Shown: positions 38,191-53,280 of the stretch, one piece after another
Position numbering within the stretch: position 1 is the first letter of the stretch
Layout of the letters: each line of letters starts with the position of its first letter
Made by a program: the position numbers and the translations under genes
Notes under the pieces: model-generated
Seen by the model: only the letters and a program-made list of their open reading frames with translations
Database searches by the model: none
Told to the model about the DNA's origin: nothing
Assembly (NCBI GenBank): GCA_022496805.1
Contig: CM040099.1
Span: forward strand, 2,048,501 to 2,112,500
Origin: Pohlia nutans
Lineage: Eukaryota > Streptophyta > Bryopsida > Bryales > Mniaceae
Direction: 5' to 3'
DNA length: 64,000 nt

Positions 38191-39243
38191 AATTAACCCA
38201 AAAAACTTGTTGCAGCCATATACCGGTACTAGCAGATGGATGTAATTCATCCAAAGTGAACTAAAGAATCATAGAGTAAATGAAGGAATTTTTATTCAAT
38301 TCTTTTTGTGAAGGCTCTTTGTTGATCATGCCATTTCTTCAAGTTAAATTAAGGTCATTCAAGCCATTTTTGGATTTTACATGAGGTCCCAATTACACAA
38401 AGACATAACATTTTAGTAGCCTTTGTGTCCACTGCCTTTCCTTCATGCATTGTGCTCATCACCTTGAGCTTTCACTTGTCCACTTAGCTACTCATGAAGT
38501 ACTGTTGGGTGTCGGATATTCCACACCATCTATTGTAGAGCCAAGGTAGAGACAATGCGTGCTATTGAATGTTATGAAGTTGCAAAAAGGGTTCACCATA
38601 TACTGTATTTTGGATTTTTCTATTTTTTCCTATTTAAATTAAATTCAACTATGAAAATGAATTCTATTGCATTTGGGTTTAAGTAAAAAAAATGAAGCTT
38701 ACCAAGTTTAGTTTCTATTCCACTTTGAATTTTGGAAAACTCTAAAAATTGAGTACTTTATTGAAGTTTCATTGTTTTGGTGGATATTACTATGGTGTAA
38801 CAATTATTCTAAATTTAGATACATTGATGCTTTTCATTTACTATTATTTTTTCATTGTAATTTACACCTTTAGTAAAAAAAATTGAAATCTTTAAGTATA
38901 TTTTGTAATTGATATGAATTTCCTTTACAATCACTTCAAAAGATCATAGTAATTTCAAATTTTCACCAAAATTTGTGAAAAATGGTTTGTAGTAGACACA
39001 TGGCTTTATCGACTAAAAATAAATTTTTGAATTTATATTGTATTTATAGTGGCAAAATTGAGTGTGATATGATAGATGATAGAAACACCAACCCAAATAT
39101 GGGCCGGCGTGAATAAAGTGTCCGTTCGTAATGTCAATGACCCGATGCCCACCGGACAAAGGGACATTGGAACAATACTACTCTCCTCTTTCGAGGATGG
39201 ACACTATAGTAACCAAGATAAAGTAACAGTAACAGTAACTAAG
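38191..39243. other. Intergenic DNA with repeats
   Basis: 38590-39060 is the inverted counterpart of 27086-27830. 39105-39160 (ATAAAGTGTCCGTTCGTAAT) recurs inverted at 3755-3820. An AGTAAC simple repeat and an A run close the segment. No gene. Confidence 0.5.
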
Positions 39244-39272
39244 AAAAAAAAAAAAAAAAAAAAAAAAAAAAA
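39244..39272. repeat. Poly(A) run next to (AGTAAC)n
   Basis: 29 A residues preceded by three AGTAAC units. On the - strand this would be a T run followed by GTTACT repeats, possibly the 3' tail of the retrotransposon read on that strand; unproven. Confidence 0.9.
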
Positions 39273-39334
39273 CGAAGTAATGATGGGTGAATGTTAGTTT
39301 GTATAAAGGTATGTTTAGTGTTAAGTTTTATCAC

Positions 39335-39410
39335 CAAGTCATGAGTTCTTGGTTGGTTGGTGAAGGGCGTTGTAACACAATTATGTGGTCCGGGTTCGAA
39401 ATCTGTTGGG
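39335..39410 (+). other. tRNA-like segment, possible SINE head
   Basis: TTGGTTGGTTGGTGAAGGGC resembles a pol III A box region. GGTCCGGGTTCGAA, about 40 bp later, matches the B box and T-arm of tRNAs, and GTTGTAACACAA occupies the anticodon-arm place. It does not fold into a full functional tRNA by eye, so it is more likely the head of a tRNA-derived SINE on the + strand, in the 3' flank of the retrotransposon. Confidence 0.4.
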
Positions 39411-39744
39411 CTCGTTGAGCAGTGGTGTGATACACATAACTTGGTGCTGCTAGTGAGTTCTCATGGCAGGAAAGTTGTACCAACCAATCGGCCCGTCCTA
39501 TCCCCTGAGACAAGTTGAGCTAGTTGTTTTGAAAAGAGTGGCTAGCAGTGGTTTTCACCACTACCCCCCCCCCTCTTTTAATGTACTACGTCTGTTGGTA
39601 TTGTTTGATTATTTTCTATACGTCTTTTATGTAGAAGGATTGATCCGGCATACTGTATGGCAATGGTATTTATTGCTTTGAATGTGTGTTTTATGGAGGT
39701 TTCACAAATTTTAAATTTTGTTTCCAGTAGTTTCATTGAGGGGA

Positions 39745-40252
39745 TGTGTGTGGTTCCTCTGGCTCCAGCTGTAATGACTATGATGGGATCTACTTTCCAG
39801 CCTTGTTGTATGATATTGTTAATTAGAGGTTGGTATTTTATAATTTTCCTGCCAATTGTTTCTGGTGAAAATCTGTCGTTTGTGTATGTGAATTCTATGA
39901 ATTGTATGGTTAGGTTATCATCGGGGTATAGAGGCGGTGGGCTTTGGTATGGGAGGCCTTTAATGCATAGTATATCTGGTTTGAATCTGGCATTACATTG
40001 ACATCTTTGTCGATTACAAGTACATGGTAATAACCATGGAGGAACTGTGTTCTCTTGTGGGTTATTGTTGAATGTGCCTGCATTCATAAGAGTGTAGCAT
40101 CTTGATTTATTTGAGGATAGTATTAATTTTCTTAATTCCCATACTGCTTTGTTGTGTCTTTTGGTTCTAAGTGCGTGTATATGGTGTTGTTTGCATATTA
40201 AAAGTACATGTAGCCATGTATCTGCGTCTTGTGAATTACATATGGGACATGT
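39745..40252 (-). other. CCHC finger plus KPD...E restriction-like endonuclease candidate
   Basis: A C-x2-C-x9-H-x4-C finger is followed by KPDIL, then about 25 residues later IEFT, then KYQPL, GWKV and GARG. R2-type restriction-like endonucleases have a CCHC finger followed by a (K/R)PD motif and a further acidic residue, and similar PD...E...KYxPL...GxxG tails occur in other LINEs. The spacing is longer than in R2, so the call is tentative. Confidence 0.5.
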
Positions 40253-40599
40253 TTTTGAGGGGAATCTTTGTATGCCGAAAATTAATTGTTTTCTGGCATT
40301 ACCCATGTATTGACCGGTTCTAAATTTTAGTATGCTTGTTTTTTGTGCGTCTGTTATTTCTGGGTATTTCCAAAAGTCATTGGACATTTCGTTATCTATG
40401 ATGGGGTTTGTTGTCCATTTGTTGATGTTGGGGAAGTGTTCTGCCAGTAGTTCGAGGTTATGTTCACGGTCATGTTTCTTGATGTATTCTTCCAAACATC
40501 TAACTGGACCTTTGTCTGGTCGTTTGATACGGCCGGGCCAGGTATCTTTTTGGAAGTAGTAAGGTGTGGTATGTGCATATTCGTGTGGGTTTGATGCTG

Positions 40600-41050
40600 G
40601 TTGATAGCCTCTTTTCATGGTTCCTTCTTTTGCGAGTTGATGTGCGTGTTCATTTCCGTTGATTTTCGTGTGTGCTTTAACTTTGTAGATTGTGGTGGGT
40701 TGTGTACGCTTTTGTAGCATTTCAACCATTTCTTTTAATATGGTTTTATCTGCGTGGTTATTTTGTTGGGTAGGGTGTTTTAGTTGTGTGTTTAGAACAT
40801 GTATACAATTGAGACAATCAGTAAAAATATGTGCAGGTTCGTTTATATATCGAGTGGTGATTATTGAAAGTGTTTCGTGTATGGCCATTAATTCTGCTCT
40901 GAAGCATGTTTGTAGTCCAGGCAGTCTTTTGGATATTTGTACATCTGGTTTTGTTGAGTTGTATATGCCATATCCAGCTTTTTCTTTTTTCCAATGGCCA
41001 TCATCCGCTTCTTTAGGTGGAAAAAATGATCCATCTGTGTAATAGCTGTA
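40600..41050 (-). other. RNase H domain of ORF2
   Basis: Would remove the RNA strand during reverse transcription. Asp in TDGS (about 41030), Glu in FRAELMAI (about 40895) and Asp in FTDCLN (about 40820) are visible. The fourth acidic position, normally in GNE-x-AD, is His in GNEHAH (about 40640-40660). This may reduce activity or be a lineage variant. Confidence 0.8.
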
Positions 41051-42903
41051 TTGTGGTAGAAATTTTAGTGTAGTGTTTATTTCGAAGTTTGGAAGGGGAT
41101 CGATCCACATGTTTTGTAGATTGTTATAGGGTGGGTATAGAAGTTTGTTCCATTTTGTGCTTTTGTTAACTTTTGTGTTTAATGGTGTTGGTGGTGCTGT
41201 TTGTGTAAAGTATTGTGTAATTTGTAGATTTTCAATTGCTTTGTTTATGGTATATATTTGGTTTATTGTACCAATATTGTTGTTTTGATGATGAATACAC
41301 CATACGTGTATTGCAAGTGGTTCGTTTCGGGTTTTGTTGGGTATTAGTGGGATTGTTGGTTCGTCATATGTAATGGTGTCCGCGGTAAAGTGTATAATGG
41401 CGTGTGTATCCGGAAAGGGTCCGTTGTACGGTGATAGGTTTTGGTACCAGTTGGTGTCTGGTATTGCTAAGATGGTGACAGTTTCTGGGTCTTGTTTTGC
41501 TGCTAGTCTAGCCCAATGTATTGCTTGTTGTGCTGTTTCGGCGTCATTTGGATGAGCATATCCAATGCCTTTCCATTTGTATTGAAAGGCTGTTCCTAGT
41601 GAGCCAAAAATCCTATCTCTAGCGAATGTAGAGAAGAATTGGGTAGATTTCATGGAACATGTGATTGGTGAGGAAAAGTATGAGTGTGTTATATTAAATG
41701 TTGTTATTAGTGTGTTTAGAATGTTGGATGGAATGGTATGGTGTGGTTTTTTTATTGTATTTTTTTTGTGGTTTTTGTGTTCGTATCTTTGGTATAACCA
41801 GACTACTTCCGTTTCAAATGATTGTATAGCAGGTATTAGTCTGTGGATGTTGTATTTGTTGTTGTTATATTGTTGCCATAACCATTTTATTCTTGTAGTG
41901 GGAATGGTGGTGATATATTTACCTGTGTCATTATATATGTGGGTTTTATCATTTTGTGTTTGAATGGTGCACTTGTTTGTGTCTATGTCTTTTTCTGGGT
42001 TGCATTCAATTGTGGATGTTTTGATGTAGGGAGTTATTGTTGGGGGTGGGATGTGTCTAGTGTCTCTATTTTGTTCGGGTGTAAATTGTGTATTTATAAT
42101 ATTTTGATAGTGTTTGTTTTTAAGATTTGTATAGTATTTTGTAAGTAGGTTTATATTATGATGTATTACTGTTGGTAGATTTAGTGGGAATAGTTCGCGT
42201 TGTACTAACCATTTATTGTATGTTATGTGGTTTGGGTCTATCCATTGACATAGATAGGTGTTGTATTTTTTCGGTATTTTATATTTGTCTTTAGTTGTAA
42301 TTGTTTTGTGGTTTAATATTGTGTGGATGGGGAATCTTGTGGGGTCGTTTTCTATGTTTTGTGGTGGGGCTGGTTGTTGTGGAGGTTGAGGGATTTGTAT
42401 GGGATTTATTGGTGTTCTTGGTATTATTCTGTGGTCGTATATTTTGTATTTTTCTTTTAGTGTACGGGGTGGTAAGTGTAATTGACATGGATTTGGGCAA
42501 TCCTCGTCACATTTTGGTTCACAAAAGAGTTGTTCTGCTATGTTTAATGCACTTTTGTCTAGTTTAGTTGGATTTTGATAATATATTTTAAAATCTTCTG
42601 GTGACATTAGTTTTGTGCCGTTGGGAAGGATGATTTGGTTAATATTGTAAATTTTGTGTGCCATTAATTTATATAATAATTTGATGGAGAGTTTCGGGTC
42701 TAATTGTGGAAGGTCATTTATGACTGCTGAACGCCATTCTTTTTCTAGTTCAGTCATGTAGAGTTGAAAATTCTCTTCTGTGCTTTTAAGGTGTATACCA
42801 ACTTCTATTTTCAGAAGGAATAGTGTTCGTGTCGTAGGTGATGTAATGCAGTCTTGTCGTTTAATTCTTGGGATGGCATCGGCACCTCCGGCTTTGACAA
42901 GTA

Positions 42904-42932
42904 CAGTGACCTTCAAAACTGTCCCAATGTTT
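42904..42932. repeat. Left terminal inverted repeat of the Tc1 element
   Basis: Begins CAGTGACCTTCAAAACTG right after a TA; pairs with 44472-44500. Confidence 0.95.
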
Positions 42933-43131
42933 GTACATATTACATTCAAAAAACAATGTAGGTAAGAGAAACTCATGGAATGGAAGGTAATAAATTTACT
43001 GAAATAGTACATACAATGTACTAATTGTTTACAGAAATTCCAACAAAATTGAAGCACTCAATGAGAAGGGAAAAAAACCTAAAGCTACTATGTATATTGG
43101 GACACTTTTGAAGGTCCAACATGGAAATCCC

Positions 43132-44151
43132 TCACCACTTTGTCCATTTTCCTTTGGATTTTAATACAGCTGCTATTCGTCTGGGCATTGATTCTATAAG
43201 TCTCATGCAATCATCAACAGTGATAGAAGGGAAGGTTTCTTCTACACGAGACCATAATTCAAGTATCCCTTTTGGTGGTGTATCATATCGGTTTAATCTC
43301 CTTTTCAAAATCGCCCATAGATTTTCTATAGGATTCAAATCTGGAGACTGAGGAGGCCAAGATAAGACACCAAAAGGTTGCCTAGAAAACCATTGTTTCA
43401 TACTATTACTGCTATGTATAGGTGCATTATCTTGTTGAAAGATGACTTCTGATACATCTAAATTATATTTTTGAATTGTACCATAGAGATGCTCCTCCAA
43501 GATTTTTTGATAACCATACTGATTGAGGCGACCTTCAATTCTATACATCATGCCAGGTCCATGTGTACACATACATCCCCATATCATCACAGAACCGCCA
43601 CCATGCTTAACAGTCGGAATAACAATCCGCTCTGAAAGTTCTTGTGGATCACGAACCCAACACCAAACTCTCCCATCTGAAGAAAATCTATTAATTTTAG
43701 TCTCATCTGAGAATATCACGTGACTCCAATCGTCAATAGTCCAGTGCTGATACTTTCTGGCAAATTCTAAGCGAGCCCTAATATTATTGCTTGACAAATG
43801 TGGTTTCTTTTCTTTCACATGCGATTGCAAACCTGCTCTACAAAGTCCACGACGTACAGTAACTTCACTGACTTGTACTCCAAAAACTTCTTGCACTTGT
43901 TTAGTAGCTTCTCTTGCAGTAGACACCTTCCCTCTAGTTACACTAGTTACACAAGACCGCTCCATTGCACTTGTCAACTTGCGTGGTCTACCTCCAACTG
44001 AAAGCTTTGCATCTGGAAAATGCTTCTGACAGAGCCTCTGTACACTTGATTTACCAACATGCAAAGACTTTGCTATCTCTCTCACACTACAACCTTTTTG
44101 AAGCAAAGAGAGTACGTTCTGTTGCTTCCCTTGGGACAATGGTCTCACCAT
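43132..44151 (-). CDS. Tc1-like DD34E transposase
   Basis: 339 residues, the normal length for Tc1 transposases; cuts and pastes the element at TA sites. The N-terminal part (about 1-110) has paired helix-turn-helix features: LSQGKQQNVLSLLQKGCSVREIA, then KSLHVGKSSVQRLC, then a GGRPRKLT AT-hook-like GRPR motif. Catalytic residues: Asp in VIFSDETKINRF, Asp in IFQQDNAPIHSS, and Glu in SPDLNPIENLW exactly 34 residues after the second Asp. The start is the Met of MVRPLSQGKQQ; the frame is open further upstream, but that stretch looks like untranslated terminal DNA. No stop or frameshift. Plant mariner-like transposases are usually DD39D, so DD34E stands out and hints at transfer from an animal, fungal or protist source. 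Confidence 0.95.
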   Translation of the reverse strand: MVRPLSQGKQQNVLSLLQKGCSVREIAKSLHVGKSSVQRLCQKHFPDAKLSVGGRPRKLTSAMERSCVTSVTRGKVSTAREATKQVQEVFGVQVSEVTVRRGLCRAGLQSHVKEKKPHLSSNNIRARLEFARKYQHWTIDDWSHVIFSDETKINRFSSDGRVWCWVRDPQELSERIVIPTVKHGGGSVMIWGCMCTHGPGMMYRIEGRLNQYGYQKILEEHLYGTIQKYNLDVSEVIFQQDNAPIHSSNSMKQWFSRQPFGVLSWPPQSPDLNPIENLWAILKRRLNRYDTPPKGILELWSRVEETFPSITVDDCMRLIESMPRRIAAVLKSKGKWTKW

Positions 44152-44471
44152 TTTCACTTGTGAAGTTAAACACGAAAAAAACAAATATATGACGCAAGAA
44201 GAACAGATACACACAACAGAACATAAACCAAGCAATTCACAATGCATGTACACTTCACTTGCTATGCACACAAGACTCACTCATATGGACTTTCAAAACT
44301 GTCCCAATGAAGAGGAAATATCTAGAGCTTCAATCCATGCACATGCATGTAGAGACAAGTGGCAAGACTTGCTCCTGAATTACCTTACTGATAATAGCAT
44401 GTAACTAAATTGATGCCATGTCAGTCTAGCATGCAATCACTATTTGGTGACTCACCAAACTTCCAAATTAG

Positions 44472-44500
44472 AAACATTGGGACACTTTTGAAGGTCACTG
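44472..44500. repeat. Right terminal inverted repeat of the Tc1 element
   Basis: Ends CTTTTGAAGGTCACTG followed by TA; one mismatch to the left repeat over 29 bp. Confidence 0.95.
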
Positions 44501-46612
44501 TATGTGTTGTATGAGTCCTTTATATATTATTCCTAGTCTTCCTTTGTCGTTAAGTGCATTACGAAGTTGTTCCCCAATACATCTAAGGTAGGCATTTTTT
44601 AGAGAGAAGGCTTCTAGTCCAAATAAATCATGAGGAAGTTGAGTTATTATGTTTGCGGTGCTTTTAGGTAGTCCGCATATTATTTTTTGGATTGCAATAA
44701 TTTTCTTGTCAAGTTTTTTAATGGTTGGTAGTGAGTATGGGACTACAAAAAAGGTGTAGGCTATGCCTGCTCTGATTACTGTGTCCACCATACTGATTCT
44801 TTGTTTGATGGTGGCAGGGCATTTTGATAATTGTTTACATTGGTTTATTATTTTAGTTGTGGTGATATGTGTTTGAAGTTTCCATTTTAGTGATGGAACT
44901 AATTGTATACCTAAGTATACATACGGTTCATTTTGATGGAGTACTGGTAAAGTCTGGTTTCTGTAATTGATTTTTTGGTTTGTGATGTAGGTTTTAAATT
45001 TGTTTGGTGGTATTTTGGATTTATTTGGACAACCGGTAACGGCGCATTTTGTGACTCCCAAGTCTATGCCCGCCCATTCACAGAATTTGTCAATTTTGTT
45101 TAGTTGTATTTGTAGTGATTTTGTATTGTTTGATATAGCTGCTAGATCGTCCGCGTATGCTGCAGAGCTAATTTGGATTTTTGATGTACTAAATTTGTAG
45201 CCATTTTCCCCTCTTTGTAGCCATCTCAAGAGTGGTTCGAGAAAAATTATGAAAAGATATGGGCTAAGTGTATCTCCCTGTATGGTTCCTCTTTGAATCG
45301 GTATTGGTTTTGTTTTGCCAAAGTGTTCACCGGTAAAGATGGTGTTTGAATGGGAGTATATGTTGCCAACTAACATAATTGCATCTTCTGGGTATCCCAG
45401 GTCTTTCATTATAGTTAGTAGTCTTGGATGATCTAGAGAGCCAAATGCGTTTTTGAAGTCTATATAAAGTAGATATATATCCTGGTTTGTAAATTTTGCA
45501 TCTTCTAGTGCTGCTATGAGGAGTTGTAATTGTCTTGCTGTACTTCTTTCTGCTCTGAATCCTTCTTGACTATCGTGTAGGATTTGATATTTTTCACCGT
45601 ATGCTGATAGTATGTATGTTAGCGTACTGGTGAAGAGTTTGTATATTGTGTTTGCAAGTGCTATTGGTCTGTGGTTTGGCAGTTGTGCTGGATTTCCTTT
45701 TTTATAAAGTAGTATAGTTAAACTAATTTTCCATGAGGCTGGGATTTGTTTTTGTTTGTAGCAATGAGTGAAAAATAGAAAGAGTAGTTTTTGGAAGTTT
45801 TCGGGCATGTTTTTTAGTATTGAGTTGGAAATTTTGTCTGGTCCTGGTGCTTTGTTGTTGGATAGGTTTTTAAGACAAATTTCATATGTTTCTTTATCAA
45901 AGTGTTTATAAAGTGGTGTTTGTGGATGTCCTCTTTTTTCTATTACAAAACCATCCAGGTCGTGCCATGGGTATTGTCTAACTCCGCAAGTACATTGTAC
46001 TGCGTGTTCGGGTTGGTAGTAGCATGTTGGTACTGTAGGTCTATTGCTAATTGATTGTTGTATGTGGATTTCATTTGCTATGTCTTCTGGGTTCGTCAGC
46101 ATGTTGTTGTTTCTGTCCACAATGCAGTCTAGTGGTGGTGTTTCTTGATTTTTGAAAACTTTCTTGTTTATTTTCTTTGGGCTTTTATCGTATAGTCGTC
46201 TGTATTTTTGAATTGCCTTTTTTATACAACTTTGGGTATATTTTGTAGTGATTTTACGTGCTTGTATTTTTGCTGTTTTGGCTATTTCTACTAATGATTG
46301 GATCCATTCTATTTGGTCATGTTCTTGGGATGGGAGTGGTGGAATGTTTACATTTATATGGGTTTTTAATTCTTCAATTATTGGATGTGTTTGCCAGTTT
46401 TGTGTATTTTTTGTTATGTAAATTGTTTTTCGAATTAGATGGTAGGTGGATAAGTGTTTTTTCCATGATTTTTGTAGTTTTCTTGGTAAGAAGCCTCCTT
46501 GTTTAGCAGTGCGATTTGTTAGTATTGGGAGTGGTGGTGCACTGCAAGTTTCTTGAATTTTGTCTGAAATTTTTTGTATCAAGTGATCTAGTTTTGAACA
46601 TGATGTTTGCCA
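44501..46612 (-). pseudogene. Retrotransposon ORF2, middle part: reverse transcriptase
   Basis: Continues the ORF2 frame after the internal TAA at 46613-46615 and ends in the Tc1 element. It contains a complete LINE-type RT (about 44900-45900): NKAPGPDKIS, SWKISLTILLYKKG, HRPIALANTIYK, SQEGFRAERSTARQ, LLYIDFKNAFGSLDH, RGTIQGDTLSPYLF, the catalytic AYADD (45146-45157) and a following thumb region. Copies RNA into DNA at the nicked target. The first in-frame codons after the stop (WQTSCSKLDHL) read on without change, so the stop looks like a point mutation rather than a gene border, unless it is suppressed in translation. Confidence 0.85.
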
Positions 46613-49255
46613 TTAGACGTCTGTTAGTTGATCATTTGATAATATTGTGACAAGTTCATTTATTTCTAGAGCATTTTCTTCAAAATATTCTATTTTGAAT
46701 TTTTCCATATTTTTTTGTGGTATGGGGTTTAGAATTCTTGTTGTTTTGTTTGTTATTGGAATGGGTCTTGCCAATAAGGCGTTCGGTGGTATGTGTAGTG
46801 TTACTGGTGAGTGGTCAGAGTTAAGGTTGTGGTCGTTGTCTGTGGTTGATGTGTATAGAGTATTATCTGGTGTTTTAATATAATATCCATCTATTAGACT
46901 GGTTTGATTATAGTTTTGACCCCCTTGTCTGGAATATGGGCAATTTGTTGGGATATATTCTAATTGTAGATTATTTGTGAATGTTCTCCATTCTATATCT
47001 TCCATTTGTGGTGGAGTTGTGTCAGTATTATTTTTCCGTCCAATAAGTGCTATGTCTCTATTAAAATCTCCACATAGTATGTATGTGGTATTTGGATGTG
47101 TATTGATTTGTTGTGTTATGTTTTGTTGGATCAATGGTATATATTGTGTATCTTCTACATGAGACGGCATATACATGTGAATAATTAGCCAAGTTTGTAG
47201 TGGATTATTGTCTATTTTTATTATTTGTAAATAGGGTGATATTTCCTTAGGAGTTGGAATTTTAGTGATGTTGCCGGGATATGCGTATTTTTGGTGTATT
47301 AGTGTGATGAGGCCTCCTCTTGCGGGTACATATGGTATACGTTGTTGCATGCATCTTGTTAGGGTATGTGTGTTGTTAAAGATTAATTTGTATTTTGGAA
47401 ATAAGTTTTGTATGTATTTGGTGGATTTAGTAGCAGTTATTTTAGTTTCTTGTATTGTGATGATAGCGGGTTGGTCCGGTGTGTTGATTAGTTCCTGTAG
47501 ATTTGGAAGGGCCGTATTTAGTGACGAGGCATTCCATGTAATAAATCTCGTATTATGGTTTGTTGTACGTATTTCTTGTGGTTGTAATATAGGTATGTTT
47601 GGAAGTGGTGGGGGGTGGGTGTATTCTTGTATTGGTTCATGTATTTTTAATGTTTCTTTTAACAAATTAATGGGGAGGAATGGGAATTCATCGATCATGG
47701 TTTGGAGGGTTATTGGACCATTATATTGATATAAAAAATCATATATTTCTTCATGAATTGTATTTGGTGGGTTTATTATATTTTGATTTTTGTTTGTAAA
47801 TTCTGTATATGGGTGTCTAGTTAATATGTGTCTTTCTGGTGGGTTTTGGAGTAAGGATATTTTTTCTAGCAGTAATGTTGTCCAATCAGGGTTGGGAATT
47901 TGTATTAAAAGTTGATCACATGTTTCTTTTGATGGACTTATTGTAACTATGAGTGCGTATAAAATTCTTGGTGATGGATGATGTTGATTTTGGTGAATAT
48001 AATTTGATATGTGTGGATAGTCGTTGCTGGCTTCCGCATGATTTGGATGGGTTATATTTAGGATAGGTGCGAATTGTTTTGCTAAATGTTGGTACTCTGG
48101 TTGTAATTTAATCGTGCTTGGTATAAAGTATGTTTTGGATCTTCTTTTATGTGTAGGTGGATGTGTTTTTAGTAAGTCGGGCATGGGCCCGGGGTTGGAT
48201 TCGATGTCCCCGCATAATATTAATAATTGGTGTACAAAGTTTCTTTTTAGGGGAGTTTTTTGGGCTATTTCTTTTTTCTTTTTTCTTTGTCTATTTTGGA
48301 CGAGGCCGTTAGGCCGAGTCCGTTTATTTTGTTTGGTTTTATTTTTGTTGGGTTTTGTATTTCTTCTTTTTTTTGTTTTATGTGTTATGTGTTTTGTATT
48401 TTGATTGTTTTTATTTATTTTGTCATGGTTGTTTGGTTTATTTTTGTTTTTGGTATTGATTTTGGGTTTGGTATTTGTGTTGGTATTGGTATTTGTATTG
48501 GTATTGGTATTTGTGTTGGTATTGGTATTTGTATTGGTATTGGTATTTGTGTTGATATTTGTTTTGGTATTTGTGTTGGTATTTGTATAGGTATTTGTTG
48601 AATTTACTATGGTATTTCTTGATGATAATATGTTTTGGTTTGTGTTGTGATTTAGGTGGTTTTTGTCTATGTTTTTTGGTCCGGAGTTAGTTTCAGTATC
48701 TCCACTAAGTAGTATTGAAAGGTGGGGATAGAAAGTGTTGTTTGTTTTGAAGATATGGGTTTTTTCTTTGTATTTTGTGTTGTTAGTATTGGTATTGTTA
48801 TTTAGTTTGGTATTGGTATGTGTATTGGTGTTTGTGTTGGTGTTTGTGTTGGTGTTTGTATTGGTATTTGTATTGGTATTAGTATTGGTATTGGTATTGG
48901 TATTGGTATTGGTATTTGAATTTGTGTTTGTACAAAAAGGTATTGTATAATCGTATATGTATTTTTTGGTATTAGTATATACCTTTTTATTCTTGGTGCA
49001 TAGTATTCGTACAGTATATGTATACCAATAAGGTATATATATGTATTTGGTATTTTTATCCTGTATAATACTCTGTAGTCTATCATATAAATACTGTATA
49101 AATACTGCCGTATTATATTGCAAAGTAGTATTCCTAGAAATACTAGTGTATTGGAATATGTATACTGTAGGTATTTTGTACTTATAAACCGTACAAAGTA
49201 TTGTAACTATATACTTATTGAATACTAAGTATTCTGCTGTGTGGTCCTTTGTCAA
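46613..49255 (-). CDS. Retrotransposon ORF2, N-terminal part: 2A-like peptides and APE endonuclease
   Basis: About 880 codons. N-terminal region: low complexity, then two Asn-Thr repeat tracts; a degenerate 2A-like motif GDTETNSGP between them; a strongly basic Lys/Arg/Asn region; and an intact 2A-like LLILCGDIESNPGP. The APE-type endonuclease (about 46800-47560) nicks target DNA for target-primed reverse transcription. It has WNASS, IQETKI, MYMPSH, GDFNRD (47060-47071), SLIDGYYI and SDHSPV, so all expected catalytic motifs are present. The frame overlaps the ORF1 stop and has no obvious ATG at its beginning; the first codon shown is TTG at 49253-49255, so initiation may depend on frameshifting or reinitiation. 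Ends at TAA 46613-46615. Confidence 0.85.
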   Translation of the reverse strand: MTKDHTAEYLVFNKYIVTILCTVYKYKIPTVYIFQYTSISRNTTLQYNTAVFIQYLYDRLQSIIQDKNTKYIYIPYWYTYTVRILCTKNKKVYTNTKKYIYDYTIPFCTNTNSNTNTNTNTNTNTNTNTNTNTNTNTNTNTNTNTHTNTKLNNNTNTNNTKYKEKTHIFKTNNTFYPHLSILLSGDTETNSGPKNIDKNHLNHNTNQNILSSRNTIVNSTNTYTNTNTNTKTNINTNTNTNTNTNTNTNTNTNTNTNTNTNTKPKINTKNKNKPNNHDKINKNNQNTKHITHKTKKRRNTKPNKNKTKQNKRTRPNGLVQNRQRKKKKEIAQKTPLKRNFVHQLLILCGDIESNPGPMPDLLKTHPPTHKRRSKTYFIPSTIKLQPEYQHLAKQFAPILNITHPNHAEASNDYPHISNYIHQNQHHPSPRILYALIVTISPSKETCDQLLIQIPNPDWTTLLLEKISLLQNPPERHILTRHPYTEFTNKNQNIINPPNTIHEEIYDFLYQYNGPITLQTMIDEFPFLPINLLKETLKIHEPIQEYTHPPPLPNIPILQPQEIRTTNHNTRFITWNASSLNTALPNLQELINTPDQPAIITIQETKITATKSTKYIQNLFPKYKLIFNNTHTLTRCMQQRIPYVPARGGLITLIHQKYAYPGNITKIPTPKEISPYLQIIKIDNNPLQTWLIIHMYMPSHVEDTQYIPLIQQNITQQINTHPNTTYILCGDFNRDIALIGRKNNTDTTPPQMEDIEWRTFTNNLQLEYIPTNCPYSRQGGQNYNQTSLIDGYYIKTPDNTLYTSTTDNDHNLNSDHSPVTLHIPPNALLARPIPITNKTTRILNPIPQKNMEKFKIEYFEENALEINELVTILSNDQLTDV
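48185..48226 (-). other. Intact 2A-like ribosome-skipping motif
   Basis: LLILCGDIESNPGP fits the 2A consensus D-(V/I)-E-x-N-P-G-P with hydrophobic residues before it. 2A peptides make the ribosome skip the Gly-Pro bond, releasing an upstream protein and restarting with Pro. Here the basic N-terminal protein would be separated from the endonuclease-RT polyprotein. 2A sequences are known in trypanosome and sea-urchin non-LTR elements. Confidence 0.85.
48466..48600 (-). repeat. Asn-Thr coding microsatellite, downstream tract
   Basis: Imperfect AATACC/AATACA hexamers on the - strand encode alternating Asn and Thr between the two 2A-like motifs. Length is likely to vary between copies. Confidence 0.9.
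48677..48700 (-). other. Degenerate 2A-like motif
   Basis: LLSGDTETNSGP differs from the 2A consensus by Ser in place of the first Pro and Thr in place of Val/Ile. These residues matter for skipping, so it is probably inactive. It lies about 160 codons upstream of the intact motif. Confidence 0.7.
48785..48930 (-). repeat. Asn-Thr coding microsatellite, upstream tract
   Basis: Same AATACC/AATACA type as the other tract, preceding the degenerate 2A-like motif. Confidence 0.9.
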
Positions 49256-51021
49256 TCCACGTTTCTATGGGAAGTATTTTTGTTGATGTTTTGGATGCTT
49301 TGGAGAGCTTGTAGAAGTGAGTTTTGAACAAAGGTAATTTGTTGCTTGAGTTCTTCATGCTTGGCTTCATTGTGGAATCTATCTTCCTTTCTTTTTGCTT
49401 CAATTGTCTTCTCCATTTCCTCCCTTATCTTCATGTTTTCTTCTTTGATGGCCTTGTGATTCACTTCCATGATTGATAGGACGTCTTCTTTGGTGATGGA
49501 TGATGTTGTGGTTGCAAGTGTTGTCACCTTGTTCAATCCTTCAATTTCTTCTCTAATCTTCTTGTGCTCCTCTCTCATCTCTTTGTTGCTAGTCTCCATG
49601 ATAGACATCACCTCCTCCTTGGTTATAATTGGTGTTGAAGCAACTAAAGTGGTCACCGTATTGATCAAAGCTTTGTTAACATCATTGAACCCCCATTCTT
49701 CTACTTTCTCCTTGGAAGGAGGTTCCAATCCATCCAAGCTCCTCCTATGAGGAGCAAACCTAACATAGTGTCCACCGATAATGTGTGTCTTGTTCACAAA
49801 AGATCTATAGACGATTGGGTTAGTACATTGCACATTAGCGCTACCGTTATGCATAGTTCCCAATTCTCTATGAAACCATATTGAAGCCACATTCTTGCTA
49901 TCCATAGTCTTAACAATGGCCTCGGTAGTATCCACAATTGACATCAAAATAGGCAAATGAGAAAGAGTAAGGGAGAGGGCGTCTTTCTTAGCTTTGACTT
50001 CGGGGGAGATGCGTGGAGTAGAGTGGAACTTCCTTTGAGGAGCGATGATTTCTTGATTGGCCGCCACGTGGTGAAGTCGTATTTTCTCCGCTTGCTTCAG
50101 TGTTGGCGCCATGATAAAGGCATGGCATTCGTGGGTCTTCTTTTGGACATCAACAATTTCAAGGTCATGCTTTCTACGAAAGCTATTCCTCAAAATGTCG
50201 TAAAAAAGAGCACCTGGGGTCATGTCAATCAAGTTCTCACTCTTGATCTTAACAGAAAGGTTCTCATTGCTAGCTACACTATGGTAGCTCTTACAAACCT
50301 TTCCTAAGAAGGTTTTAGGGAAAGGGAAATTAGTTTTCTCATCAATAGTGTTGTAGGATAAAATAAAGGAACGTAGCCCCTTTAACATTTTGATACCATC
50401 AATTTCAGGGTTTAGAAGGTGTAGTTTTACTACACCGTTCCAAACCCCTCTTTGTCCTCCTCTTTTGGCGCTAAAACAAAGCACCGCAACGGGGTCTATA
50501 ATACCCGTGCCGAGGGGGATTTTCATGTCAATGAGCCTCTTAGTGATCAATTCTTTAGCCTCATCATGAAGAATGGGACAATCAATATGCATTTCGAAAT
50601 GCACTTCCACGTGAAAGTCTAGGACTAGTCCCGTATCCGGGTTAGTTGGTATATCAAAAGGAATTTGAGTGAGATTGTAGTGTTGTCCTACAATCCCATC
50701 ATCTCTTTCCTTTGGATATAGCAATTGCGGTGTACGTGGGTATGCCACGGTTGCCTCTATCATTTCTAGGGCTTCGTTATGGGGGACACCTCTAGTAACC
50801 ATGTCATCTACTATTTCCCCCATAAAAATTTCCTCCTCATTGTTATCAATACCCAATTTTTCCATGGTTTTGAAACCAAGCCAAAAATTGGGGTTACGTG
50901 GGCCAAGGGTTATTTTATTGTTACCTTTGTTAGAGCTCTCAGGTTTTTGATGGCTGGGAGGGTCGGAGTCACTGGCTTGGGTGTCTTCTTCCTCTCCTGT
51001 TCCGTTGCCGTCATGCTGCAT
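49252..51021 (-). CDS. Retrotransposon ORF1 (putative nucleic-acid-binding protein)
   Basis: 589 codons. I recognise no named domain and no CCHC knuckle. The N-terminus is acidic (GEEEDTQASDSD). The middle part has a folded, globular look with conserved-looking blocks such as HRELGTMHNGSANVQCTNP and YVRFAPHRRSLDGLEPP. The last 150 residues are helical and charged, with an internal repeat (ITKEEVMSIMETSNKEMREE, later ITKEDVLSIMEVNHKAIKEE), likely a coiled coil for oligomerisation. By position it is the ORF1 of a LINE, which usually packages element RNA. Its TGA (49252-49254) overlaps the first codon of the ORF2 frame. Confidence 0.75.
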   Translation of the reverse strand: MQHDGNGTGEEEDTQASDSDPPSHQKPESSNKGNNKITLGPRNPNFWLGFKTMEKLGIDNNEEEIFMGEIVDDMVTRGVPHNEALEMIEATVAYPRTPQLLYPKERDDGIVGQHYNLTQIPFDIPTNPDTGLVLDFHVEVHFEMHIDCPILHDEAKELITKRLIDMKIPLGTGIIDPVAVLCFSAKRGGQRGVWNGVVKLHLLNPEIDGIKMLKGLRSFILSYNTIDEKTNFPFPKTFLGKVCKSYHSVASNENLSVKIKSENLIDMTPGALFYDILRNSFRRKHDLEIVDVQKKTHECHAFIMAPTLKQAEKIRLHHVAANQEIIAPQRKFHSTPRISPEVKAKKDALSLTLSHLPILMSIVDTTEAIVKTMDSKNVASIWFHRELGTMHNGSANVQCTNPIVYRSFVNKTHIIGGHYVRFAPHRRSLDGLEPPSKEKVEEWGFNDVNKALINTVTTLVASTPIITKEEVMSIMETSNKEMREEHKKIREEIEGLNKVTTLATTTSSITKEDVLSIMEVNHKAIKEENMKIREEMEKTIEAKRKEDRFHNEAKHEELKQQITFVQNSLLQALQSIQNINKNTSHRNVD

Positions 51022-51075
51022 GTGCTCATGCTGCTCCTTTGTAGTATTCCTCTCTCCTTTTGATCGTTCCGGTCC

Positions 51076-51789
51076 CTAGGTGCTTGCGTCTTTGCTGCTG
51101 TCGCCTGTGGTGTTGTGGTCGCTACCGTTTTGTCTGCCTGATGCTAGGGTGTCTTTGCTTGTTGTCCTCTTTGTAGGGCTGCGCGTTCTACCTCTGGAGC
51201 TGCTCCTGAGTTTATTCTTCCTCGAACTGTTGGGGCTGCTCTCTCTGTTCTTGACTCCGTTGGGGTTGGGGCTTCGCTGATTGTCGTTGGGGCTCCGTCT
51301 CCTCGTGCTGGGGCTACGGCCTCTGCCGTTCGTGCTTAGGCTGCGGCCTCTGTTGTTGCTAGGACTTCTAGTGTCGGAACTACACTCTCTCCGACAGTCT
51401 TTGGCGGCAGACTCCTCATTTTGTTTTTGCTTACTCGCGCTCCTAGTGCGCACGTTCCAGTTGGCGTTGTTCGTGTCTTCATCGCCGGCCTTTGCAATTC
51501 TGTCGCTGCTATCTCCGGCTTGCTTTGGGATGCCTTCAGTTTGCTTGGCGCCCGGTGTTTTGTCACGCTGGCCGTCGGCGCCTCTTTCTCTTTGGCTATC
51601 TTGCGGCTGGCTCTTGTCATTGGTGCGGGCGCTGTCTTCGTTGCTCTGCTTCTGGGCGGCGGCTTCTGCTTTCTTGGCTTCACGGGCCTCTTTGACTGCA
51701 AGTAGCTTTTGAAGGTGCGTGGTATGCGAGTCGATGTCCATGCTGATAGTTTCTCCATCCATGATCCAGGCTGATAGCCGCGGCTCCAT
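51076..51789 (-). CDS. Retrotransposon SR-rich ORF
   Basis: 237 codons, low complexity, highly charged: a short helical start (LLAVKEAREAKKAEAAAQKQ), then Ser/Arg/Pro repeats such as RGRSPSTRRRSPN resembling SR-protein tails. No folded domain is recognised. It begins with ATG immediately after an in-frame TAA, and the frame upstream stays open for 336 codons. It ends 54 bp before ORF1. RNA binding is a reasonable guess from composition only. It could also be a broken-off N-terminal part of ORF1. Confidence 0.5.
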   Translation of the reverse strand: MEPRLSAWIMDGETISMDIDSHTTHLQKLLAVKEAREAKKAEAAAQKQSNEDSARTNDKSQPQDSQRERGADGQRDKTPGAKQTEGIPKQAGDSSDRIAKAGDEDTNNANWNVRTRSASKQKQNEESAAKDCRRECSSDTRSPSNNRGRSLSTNGRGRSPSTRRRSPNDNQRSPNPNGVKNRESSPNSSRKNKLRSSSRGRTRSPTKRTTSKDTLASGRQNGSDHNTTGDSSKDAST

Positions 51790-53280
51790 TTATCTGGTTT
51801 TGGTACCTGTACTAGGGCTACCAATGGAGCAACTGTCTATGGACAAATACCGATGGGTGTAATGCTTGTAGTCACAAGGGTTAAGGATAAAAATAAGGTA
51901 GTGGAAAGCAGAAAAGGGTTTGGGTTTGGGATACTTACCTGTGATTTGCCGCGGGGATTGTTGAAGCGTAAAGTTGGAGCAAATATCAAAAAGGGGAGAG
52001 ATACATAGGATGGGGGAATTTGGGTGAGGGGGATTACCTGAATTGTGCTGATCGTTCCGGGTCGGTTTGTTGCTATTTGAATCTAGCTTGTTAGTGGAGC
52101 AATTCTTGATGCAGAGGTGCCTGTAGAGTACAAAATTTTGAGATTTGGGTAGGGTTTCAGGAACCTTACCTGCGTTGGGGGGCAATGACGATTCTGGCTG
52201 CTGTTGGCTGTTAACACGGGCGAAGAGATCGTCGGTGTGGTCGTTGGCAGTAGATTGGGATGCCTTGACTCTAGCGTTGGCTATGCTCCGAAAAGCAGGG
52301 ATTTCTTGAGATCTGTTGCGGGTGCTTCTAGCAGGGCTTGTTACAGAGCAGATCCGATGCAGGGCAGTCCGAGTGAGATTTGCGCTGGTGAGTTTGACTG
52401 CCGCAGACACGTTTTTGATGTAGATCTTGTGCTGTAATTCTCGGCTGCTACTGGGATTCTTGCACACTGCGGCTGTTGGGGTGAGGTAGCGTTTGGCAGT
52501 GTTGTGGATGTTTCGGAGGCTGTTCCGATCTGCAGGCTTAGCACTAATACTACGAATCGAAATGGCAATGCAGGTAAGGACTGTACTACTGGAACTATGG
52601 AGGTTAGGAGGGGGGACCAGATCTATCCGATCTATGAAAATATTATCAATGGTATTCCGATCCGTGGAGTAGAGATTGTAAGCTATGAATTGATGGAAAA
52701 ATGCGGAAAAAACATGAGGAAGGGTTTGGAAGTTGTGACCGTGATGTAAGCTGTGGATGGGGGTGTACAATTTGCTGAAGGTTGTGAGTTGAGATTGCAT
52801 ATGTTGCTCATGCGGGGGCAGATCCAGAGATTGATGCAGTCGTCATTAGAGCAGTCAATTGCGTAGCCGTTGTGTGTGAGTATGCGCAGCAGTGGGACGA
52901 GCAGTGCCTGTAGCTGAGAGATCTGTATTGAGCATTCAAGTCTCCAACACTATGAGCACCTTCTAGCTCGCCTTAGTACTTAGAAGTGTGTGTGCTCCCC
53001 AAGTGACTCTAGATCCAACACGATCTTAACCACAGCCCGCAAGAAAGAAGGTTACTGCACGATACCACTCCCAGATCAGGAACTGTCTGTCTCGCTCTTG
53101 AGCAAATCTAACACACACGCTCCACAATGACACACATAGGTTTGGAATCACCCTCTATGCGCTTGCTTAATGGCGTAAACGATCTAGTCCTGCATCAGCC
53201 TCCTTCCCTGCCGATCTGAAAACTTCAGAGCTCCGGCATCTCCCTCTCACGCTTCCCCACCTCGAGTACCGTGTGATATG
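51790..53280 (-). other. Probable 5' leader of the retrotransposon
   Basis: GC-richer than the flank, with composition changing sharply near 53280. The frame from 52800 to 51790 (336 codons) is open but Ser/Asn/Thr-rich without a domain, and one TAA separates it from the SR-rich ORF. Three donor-like CAG-GTAA(G/T) sites on the - strand (about 51945, 52040 and 52170) hint at splicing or at internal repeats. The exact 5' end is not visible. Confidence 0.4.

Follow-up and report, generated by a model that had tools for sequence, protein, structure and literature searches.

A degenerate, probably Dualen/RandI-like retrotransposon in Pohlia nutans that joins two endonucleases to a CAPAM/PCIF1-like domain

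A 64,000-nucleotide stretch of Pohlia nutans DNA (positions 2,048,501 to 2,112,500 of contig CM040099.1, assembly GCA_022496805.1; hereafter the window) was found to carry what is very probably a degenerate copy of a giant retrotransposon without long terminal repeats (non-LTR), with two open reading frames (ORF1 and ORF2) and a Dualen/RandI-like architecture. The copy, of approximately 14 kb, lies on the minus strand, as do all of its features (Table 1), from about 53270 to 39072. By sequence or fold match ORF2 encodes, in this order, a 2A motif, an apurinic/apyrimidinic-type endonuclease (APE), a reverse transcriptase (RT), a CAPAM/PCIF1-like methyltransferase-fold domain, an RNase H, a zinc knuckle and an R2-type restriction-like endonuclease (RLE), and moderate support was obtained for a chromodomain-like domain preceding the CAPAM-like one. 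The order of these domains is conserved among relatives.

Order and conservation of the ORF2 domains

ORF2 (49264-39578) consists of pieces of 883, 705 and about 1,107 codons, counting the last without its Tc1-derived beginning, and is disrupted by an in-frame stop and by a Tc1 insertion; this copy is dead. An earlier note on this DNA, made from the letters alone, had proposed a single frame of about 2,690 codons with one stop and one Tc1 insertion. That frame was recovered as ORF2, but the region from 49252 to about 51789 proved to be a separate ORF1, in a different frame and overlapping ORF2 by 13 bases. The Asn-Thr tracts, 2A-like motif, APE, YADD-bearing RT and RNase H listed in the note were all found, its CCHC finger and KPD...E tail were identified as a zinc knuckle and R2-type RLE by fold match, and its long linker is present but holds two domains that it had not named, the CAPAM-like and the chromodomain-like ones.

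In comparison with PDB chains, the RT was closest to R2 (112.9 bits), while the best LINE-1 chain reached 67.6 bits, no plant L1 being among the chains compared. The RT piece was matched by 426 proteins at E<=1e-3 (the best 120 of the 426 being listed) and relatives were colinear with the remaining parts of the element, so that chance is excluded. The last piece of ORF2 was matched by 13 proteins (E<=0.001), 12 of them at 49-63% identity and one, P0016, at 22%. Within the 12 closer relatives, several of which are short fragments, PF12237 was precomputed in nine, RNase H in nine and both in six, and the linker domains, RNase H and RLE co-occur in single proteins. Since relatives retain the linker, its being a foreign insertion was ruled out. 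No relatives were found in viral contigs scanned with A1, P0016 and P0002, nor in genome contigs scanned with P0016 and A8.

The earlier note had allowed that the C-terminal part might belong to a separate element. In a fuller version of this reading that part is separate or nested, the true long interspersed nuclear element (LINE) being an ordinary APE-type (L1-like) one, and the Tc1 transposon does interrupt this copy just where the linker follows the RT piece. This reading is nonetheless highly improbable, as the two halves are joined in relatives: P0136 is a single protein with both RT and PF12237 (E 2.8e-6, slightly short of the curated cut-off), P0004 and P0005 run from the end of the RT region to the RLE, P0019, P0029 and P0073 have an RT domain and align to the chromodomain-like region, and P0016 extends from the RT (32% identical) through the CAPAM-like region, RNase H and zinc knuckle to the RLE. 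The affinity of the RT to R2 rather than LINE-1 also speaks against it. P0076 spans the 2A motif, APE and start of the RT; it and P0004 each list a contig of 13377 bases and may represent one element.

P0016 is a 2001-amino acid, Ala/Gly/Arg rich (GC-rich-looking) protein whose CAPAM-like region gave a Pfam E value of 0.006, below the cut-off, and for which an alignment of 150 proteins showed no match in the chromodomain-like region. In a tree to which 16 relatives were offered (P0023 and P0086 were dropped by a length rule) and for which R2 alone served as reference, P0016 grouped with the element's family against three R2 sequences; references were few, branches long and composition flagged.

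All five APE motifs are readable in the window copy. The window's own ORF2 N-terminal piece gave no Pfam match alone; relatives P0098 and P0107 matched PF03372/PF14529 above the cut-off, and 43 positions of profile A9 matched exonuclease III chains (E 5.2e-4 to 8.8e-4). The last catalytic Asp of the RNase H is His in the window copy, while it is Asp in eight of nine pattern-matched relatives and Asn in the ninth. The C-terminal linker, zinc knuckle and RLE together match the fold of R2.

The linker domains and their possible role

The predicted structure of the CAPAM-like domain matches CAPAM over residues 417-668, the methyltransferase core, and the conserved SPxxC and FGSxG stretches, which have a role in S-adenosylmethionine binding, are common to both. 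The region was aligned by 18 of 150 other proteins, and FGS, AHP, IHWAR and other residues are kept in most rows despite identities of 22-63%. At the site that, to judge from the flanking FGS-x-G and the spacing, corresponds to the catalytic NPPF motif of CAPAM, AHP-x was found in 13 of the 14 sequences that cover it and AYPT in the other (P0136). The Pfam family PCIF1_WW is described, in the part of the source available, as a CAPAM-like methyltransferase and not a WW domain (PMC7641849); with the fold match, this ruled out the WW domain that the name implies.

The chromodomain-like region was aligned by 23 of 150 other proteins, including P0019, P0029, P0060 and P0073, in which an RT domain was precomputed. 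Foldseek alone returned nothing significant for the model of this region, and by the marks of a chromodomain, a three-stranded sheet with a helix at the C-terminal side and a match to solved chromodomains, the assignment is tentative. Both linker domains look as if taken over from host proteins, the one resembling readers of histone marks and the other the enzyme that methylates mRNA starts.

Because NPPF is replaced, cap methylation is less likely than binding of the cap or 5' end, and to judge from sequence the CAPAM-like domain would most likely act on the RNA of its own element by holding the capped 5' end and not by methylating it. That it is instead catalytically active on caps despite its unusual motif, marking the element's mRNA (with N6,2'-O-dimethyladenosine, m6Am, or another cap adenosine methylation) for stability or for escape from host sensing, appears unlikely given the change of the NPPF Asn to His (Tyr in P0136), and we know of no biochemical precedent. 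An altered enzyme is conceivable because AHP itself is conserved, and this near-constancy, unlike random decay, favours an enzyme, as do the shared core fold and the shared SPxxC and FGSxG stretches. It is more doubtful still that the extra domains are an inert linker, an ancient captured spacer between RT and RNase H. The altered catalytic motif and the stretches of low model confidence (pLDDT) that surround the linker domains would suit a spacer, but the residues kept across the alignment and the presence of the CAPAM-like region in the distant P0016 would not.

The life cycle of the element might be as follows. The ORF1 protein would coat the RNA, and ribosomes entering the ORF2 frame would skip at 2A, freeing the enzyme part, whose chromodomain-like part would tether the complex to methylated histones. 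Either APE or RLE would nick the target for target-primed reverse transcription, the other endonuclease perhaps cutting the second strand, and RNase H would remove the RNA; the CAPAM-like domain, with NPPF replaced, would grip the capped 5' end of its own RNA, giving cis preference and full-length copying. We tentatively propose, as somewhat less than an even prospect, that the polymerase protein of a plant LINE lineage has a chromatin reader and an mRNA-cap module of its own, so that a single protein recognises a histone mark, holds or alters the capped 5' end of its RNA, cuts with two unrelated endonucleases and is released by 2A from an ORF1-ORF2 fusion, the cap module being so old that a distant GC-rich relative shares it. 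A cap-methyltransferase fold in a LINE polymerase would offer a direct and testable answer to how such an element recognises its own full-length RNA, and through a chromodomain a LINE would be connected to histone marks in the way that chromoviruses are.

Entry into ORF2 and extent of the copy

Homologues of ORF1 were found in 15 proteins (E<=0.001), 13 of which were aligned. Pfam assigned ORF1 to no family, and a sequence comparison with the PDB was empty at E<=1; its C-terminal segment is charged and heptad-like (a coiled coil by eye). The ORF1/ORF2 overlap (49252-49264) places ORF2 in a -1 relation, and no classic slippery heptamer was seen by eye in these 13 bases. The ORF2 frame is without ATG for about 360 codons, there being none upstream of 2A in the window copy. 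In several relatives ORF1 terminates in NV(D/E), while P0141 continues in a frame resembling the start of ORF2. The 2A motif may thus be reached by a -1 shift from ORF1 within the overlap or from a non-AUG start; alternatively, ORF2 may begin at the Met after 2A, the motif being a relic. GDIESNPGP fits the D(V/I)ExNPGP consensus of 2A and has a putative StopGo function. Both relatives that align from upstream of this site (P0076 and P0098) carry 2A-like motifs (GDIEPNPGP, GDIQPNPGP), the alignments of the remaining relatives matched to the N-terminal piece beginning after the 2A position.

The ends of the element are taken from a 10-bp repeat and are weakly placed. Comparison of the flanks gave six matches of 10-11 bp, of which this is one, and when narrower flanks were block-shuffled 2000 times, 108 of the shuffles contained a 10-mer match as well, so that the candidate target-site duplication (TSD) is weak by itself; its 5' copy sits at the start of the CpG-rich 5' leader. 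At 39330-39420, in the 3' region, lies a tRNA-like stretch in reverse orientation that has a B-box-like GGGTTCGAAATC on the plus strand and looks like a fragment of a short interspersed nuclear element (SINE); scanning the window for tRNAs and against Rfam gave no hits, this stretch included. A strong strand bias was noted over ORF2 at 46000-50000, the coding strand being G-poor and T-poor (on the plus strand, GC skew reaches 0.43 and AT skew is about -0.36).

The window also carries two B3 domains and one FKBP domain (Pfam). B3 domains are plant-specific and the host is therefore a plant, which supports the giant non-LTR element in a plant proposed in the earlier note. Tc1 proper is unusual in plants, and horizontal transfer of the Tc1-type transposon is possible.

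In an RT search of the element's own genome (697.8 Mb, 332 contigs), 150 of 3,458 candidates were scored; none lay within the window, and all were above the RT score of the window element. RT matches of near-identical score, mostly in open frames of 1188 amino acids and mostly 5,964 or 5,965 bases apart, were observed on G000 contigs C17 (13365624-13400743), C81, C110 and C312, and may reflect either tandem arrays of a single retroelement of roughly 6 kb or an artefact of the assembly.

Table 1. Features of the element copy, in window positions
Feature	Position	Strand	Basis
Candidate TSD, 5' copy (CATATCACAC)	53271..53280	-	Exact 10-bp match to 39062-39071
Presumed 5' untranslated leader	51790..53270	-	Candidate TSD and composition
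ORF1, in-frame stop at 51076-51078	49252..51789	-	Separate frame; 15 homologous proteins
ORF2 N-terminal piece with Asn-Thr tracts, 2A motifs and APE	46616..49264	-	Frame read
Asn-Thr tracts	48450-48598 and 48786-48932	-	Sequence read
Decayed 2A-like motif GDTETNSGP	48677..48703	-	Sequence read
2A (StopGo) motif GDIESNPGP, first Met of ORF2 frame directly after	48185..48211	-	Sequence read
APE (exonuclease III-type) endonuclease	46793..47542	-	Five motifs; relatives' Pfam; profile match
In-frame stop in ORF2	46613..46615	-	Frame read
RT, YADD near 45146-45157	44645..45883	-	PF00078, E 1.2e-27
Tc1 transposon inside ORF2, TA duplicated; transposase frame 43132-44280	42904..44500	-	Inverted ends and TA read; Pfam DDE_3, HTH_Tnp_Tc3_2
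Chromodomain-like domain	42113..42364	-	Moderate support
CAPAM/PCIF1-like methyltransferase-fold domain	41231..41977	-	PF12237 in relatives; fold match
AHPN, presumably in place of catalytic NPPF	41546..41557	-	Flanking FGS-x-G and spacing
RNase H	40622..41047	-	PF00075, E 1.2e-13; motifs read
R2-like linker, CCHC zinc knuckle (from about 40249), RLE (KPD, E, K..KY)	39602..40519	-	R2-type fold match
Presumed 3' untranslated region with T29 (A29 on plus strand) and reversed tRNA-like SINE fragment	39072..39577	-	Sequence read
Candidate TSD, 3' copy	39062..39071	-	Flank comparison

Comparison with known systems

An ordinary plant L1 was ruled out by the R2-type RLE, as L1 lacks an RLE, and by an RT nearer to R2 than to the LINE-1 chains of the PDB; the earlier note had asked whether the RT falls inside plant L1, and the comparison, which held no plant L1, points away from this. 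R2 is the best PDB match for the RT and shares the fold of the linker, zinc knuckle and RLE, but R2 elements have a single ORF and an RLE only, without APE, RNase H, 2A, second ORF or linker domains, and this layout is not that of the present element. LINEs of Trypanosoma and sea urchin that bear 2A are APE-type and without RLE; their likeness to the element lies in the D(V/I)ExNPGP motif, which the parts of the literature available describe for them. No plant LINE with 2A is named in the portions of the StopGo literature examined, and a 2026 StopGo paper, in its accessible part, reports finding no evidence that plant viruses use it naturally (PMC12846837).

The likeness to the cap-specific adenosine methyltransferase CAPAM/PCIF1 extends to the fold of the catalytic core, SPxxC and FGSxG, while NPPF is replaced and the domain is embedded in a retrotransposon protein. 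A chromodomain within a retroelement protein is also known, from the source as far as available, in chromoviruses and Chronos (PMC5348765), but these are LTR elements, whereas the present element is non-LTR and has the domain between its RT and its RNase H.

Two of the four features by which Dualen/RandI membership was judged were found (one element with both APE and RLE, and RNase H in ORF2), and the element is therefore filed as Dualen/RandI-like and not as a proven member. The third feature is an RT that branches between the RLE-type and APE-type groups; here the tree contained R2 references, and the PDB scores placed R2 above LINE-1. The fourth is a cysteine protease, which Kojima and Fujiwara are said to have described in 2005 as a Dualen feature; the ORF1 pieces and the N-terminal piece of ORF2 matched no Pfam family. 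The lack of a protease match would favour a separate new clade next to Dualen, with APE, RLE, RNase H and the captured domains acquired independently; we consider such a clade improbable, as the sources, as far as available, attribute to Dualen this uncommon set of APE, RLE and RNase H. They state that Dualen/RandI encodes both APE and RLE (PMC4640811, PMC3636483) and place it among the RNase H carriers, and the evidence thus supports Dualen/RandI as the closest described architecture, as the earlier note had supposed. LINEs with two endonucleases bear on the origin of APE-type from RLE-type elements, and this large plant-associated family, with hundreds of relatives, is material on which that origin can be tested. 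Dualen is reported from Chlamydomonas and relatives in the available part of PMC8226300, and neither a Dualen in a land plant nor a retrotransposon-encoded PCIF1/CAPAM was found in literature results that were partly covered, which makes this a weak absence. The element thus resembles the Dualen/RandI elements of green algae in its APE, RLE and RNase H and differs from them in its host, a plant with B3 genes, and in its 2A motif and chromodomain-like and CAPAM-like domains, which the portions seen of the Dualen sources do not mention; as far as the literature was searched, the linker domains set it apart as new among Dualen/RandI-like LINEs.

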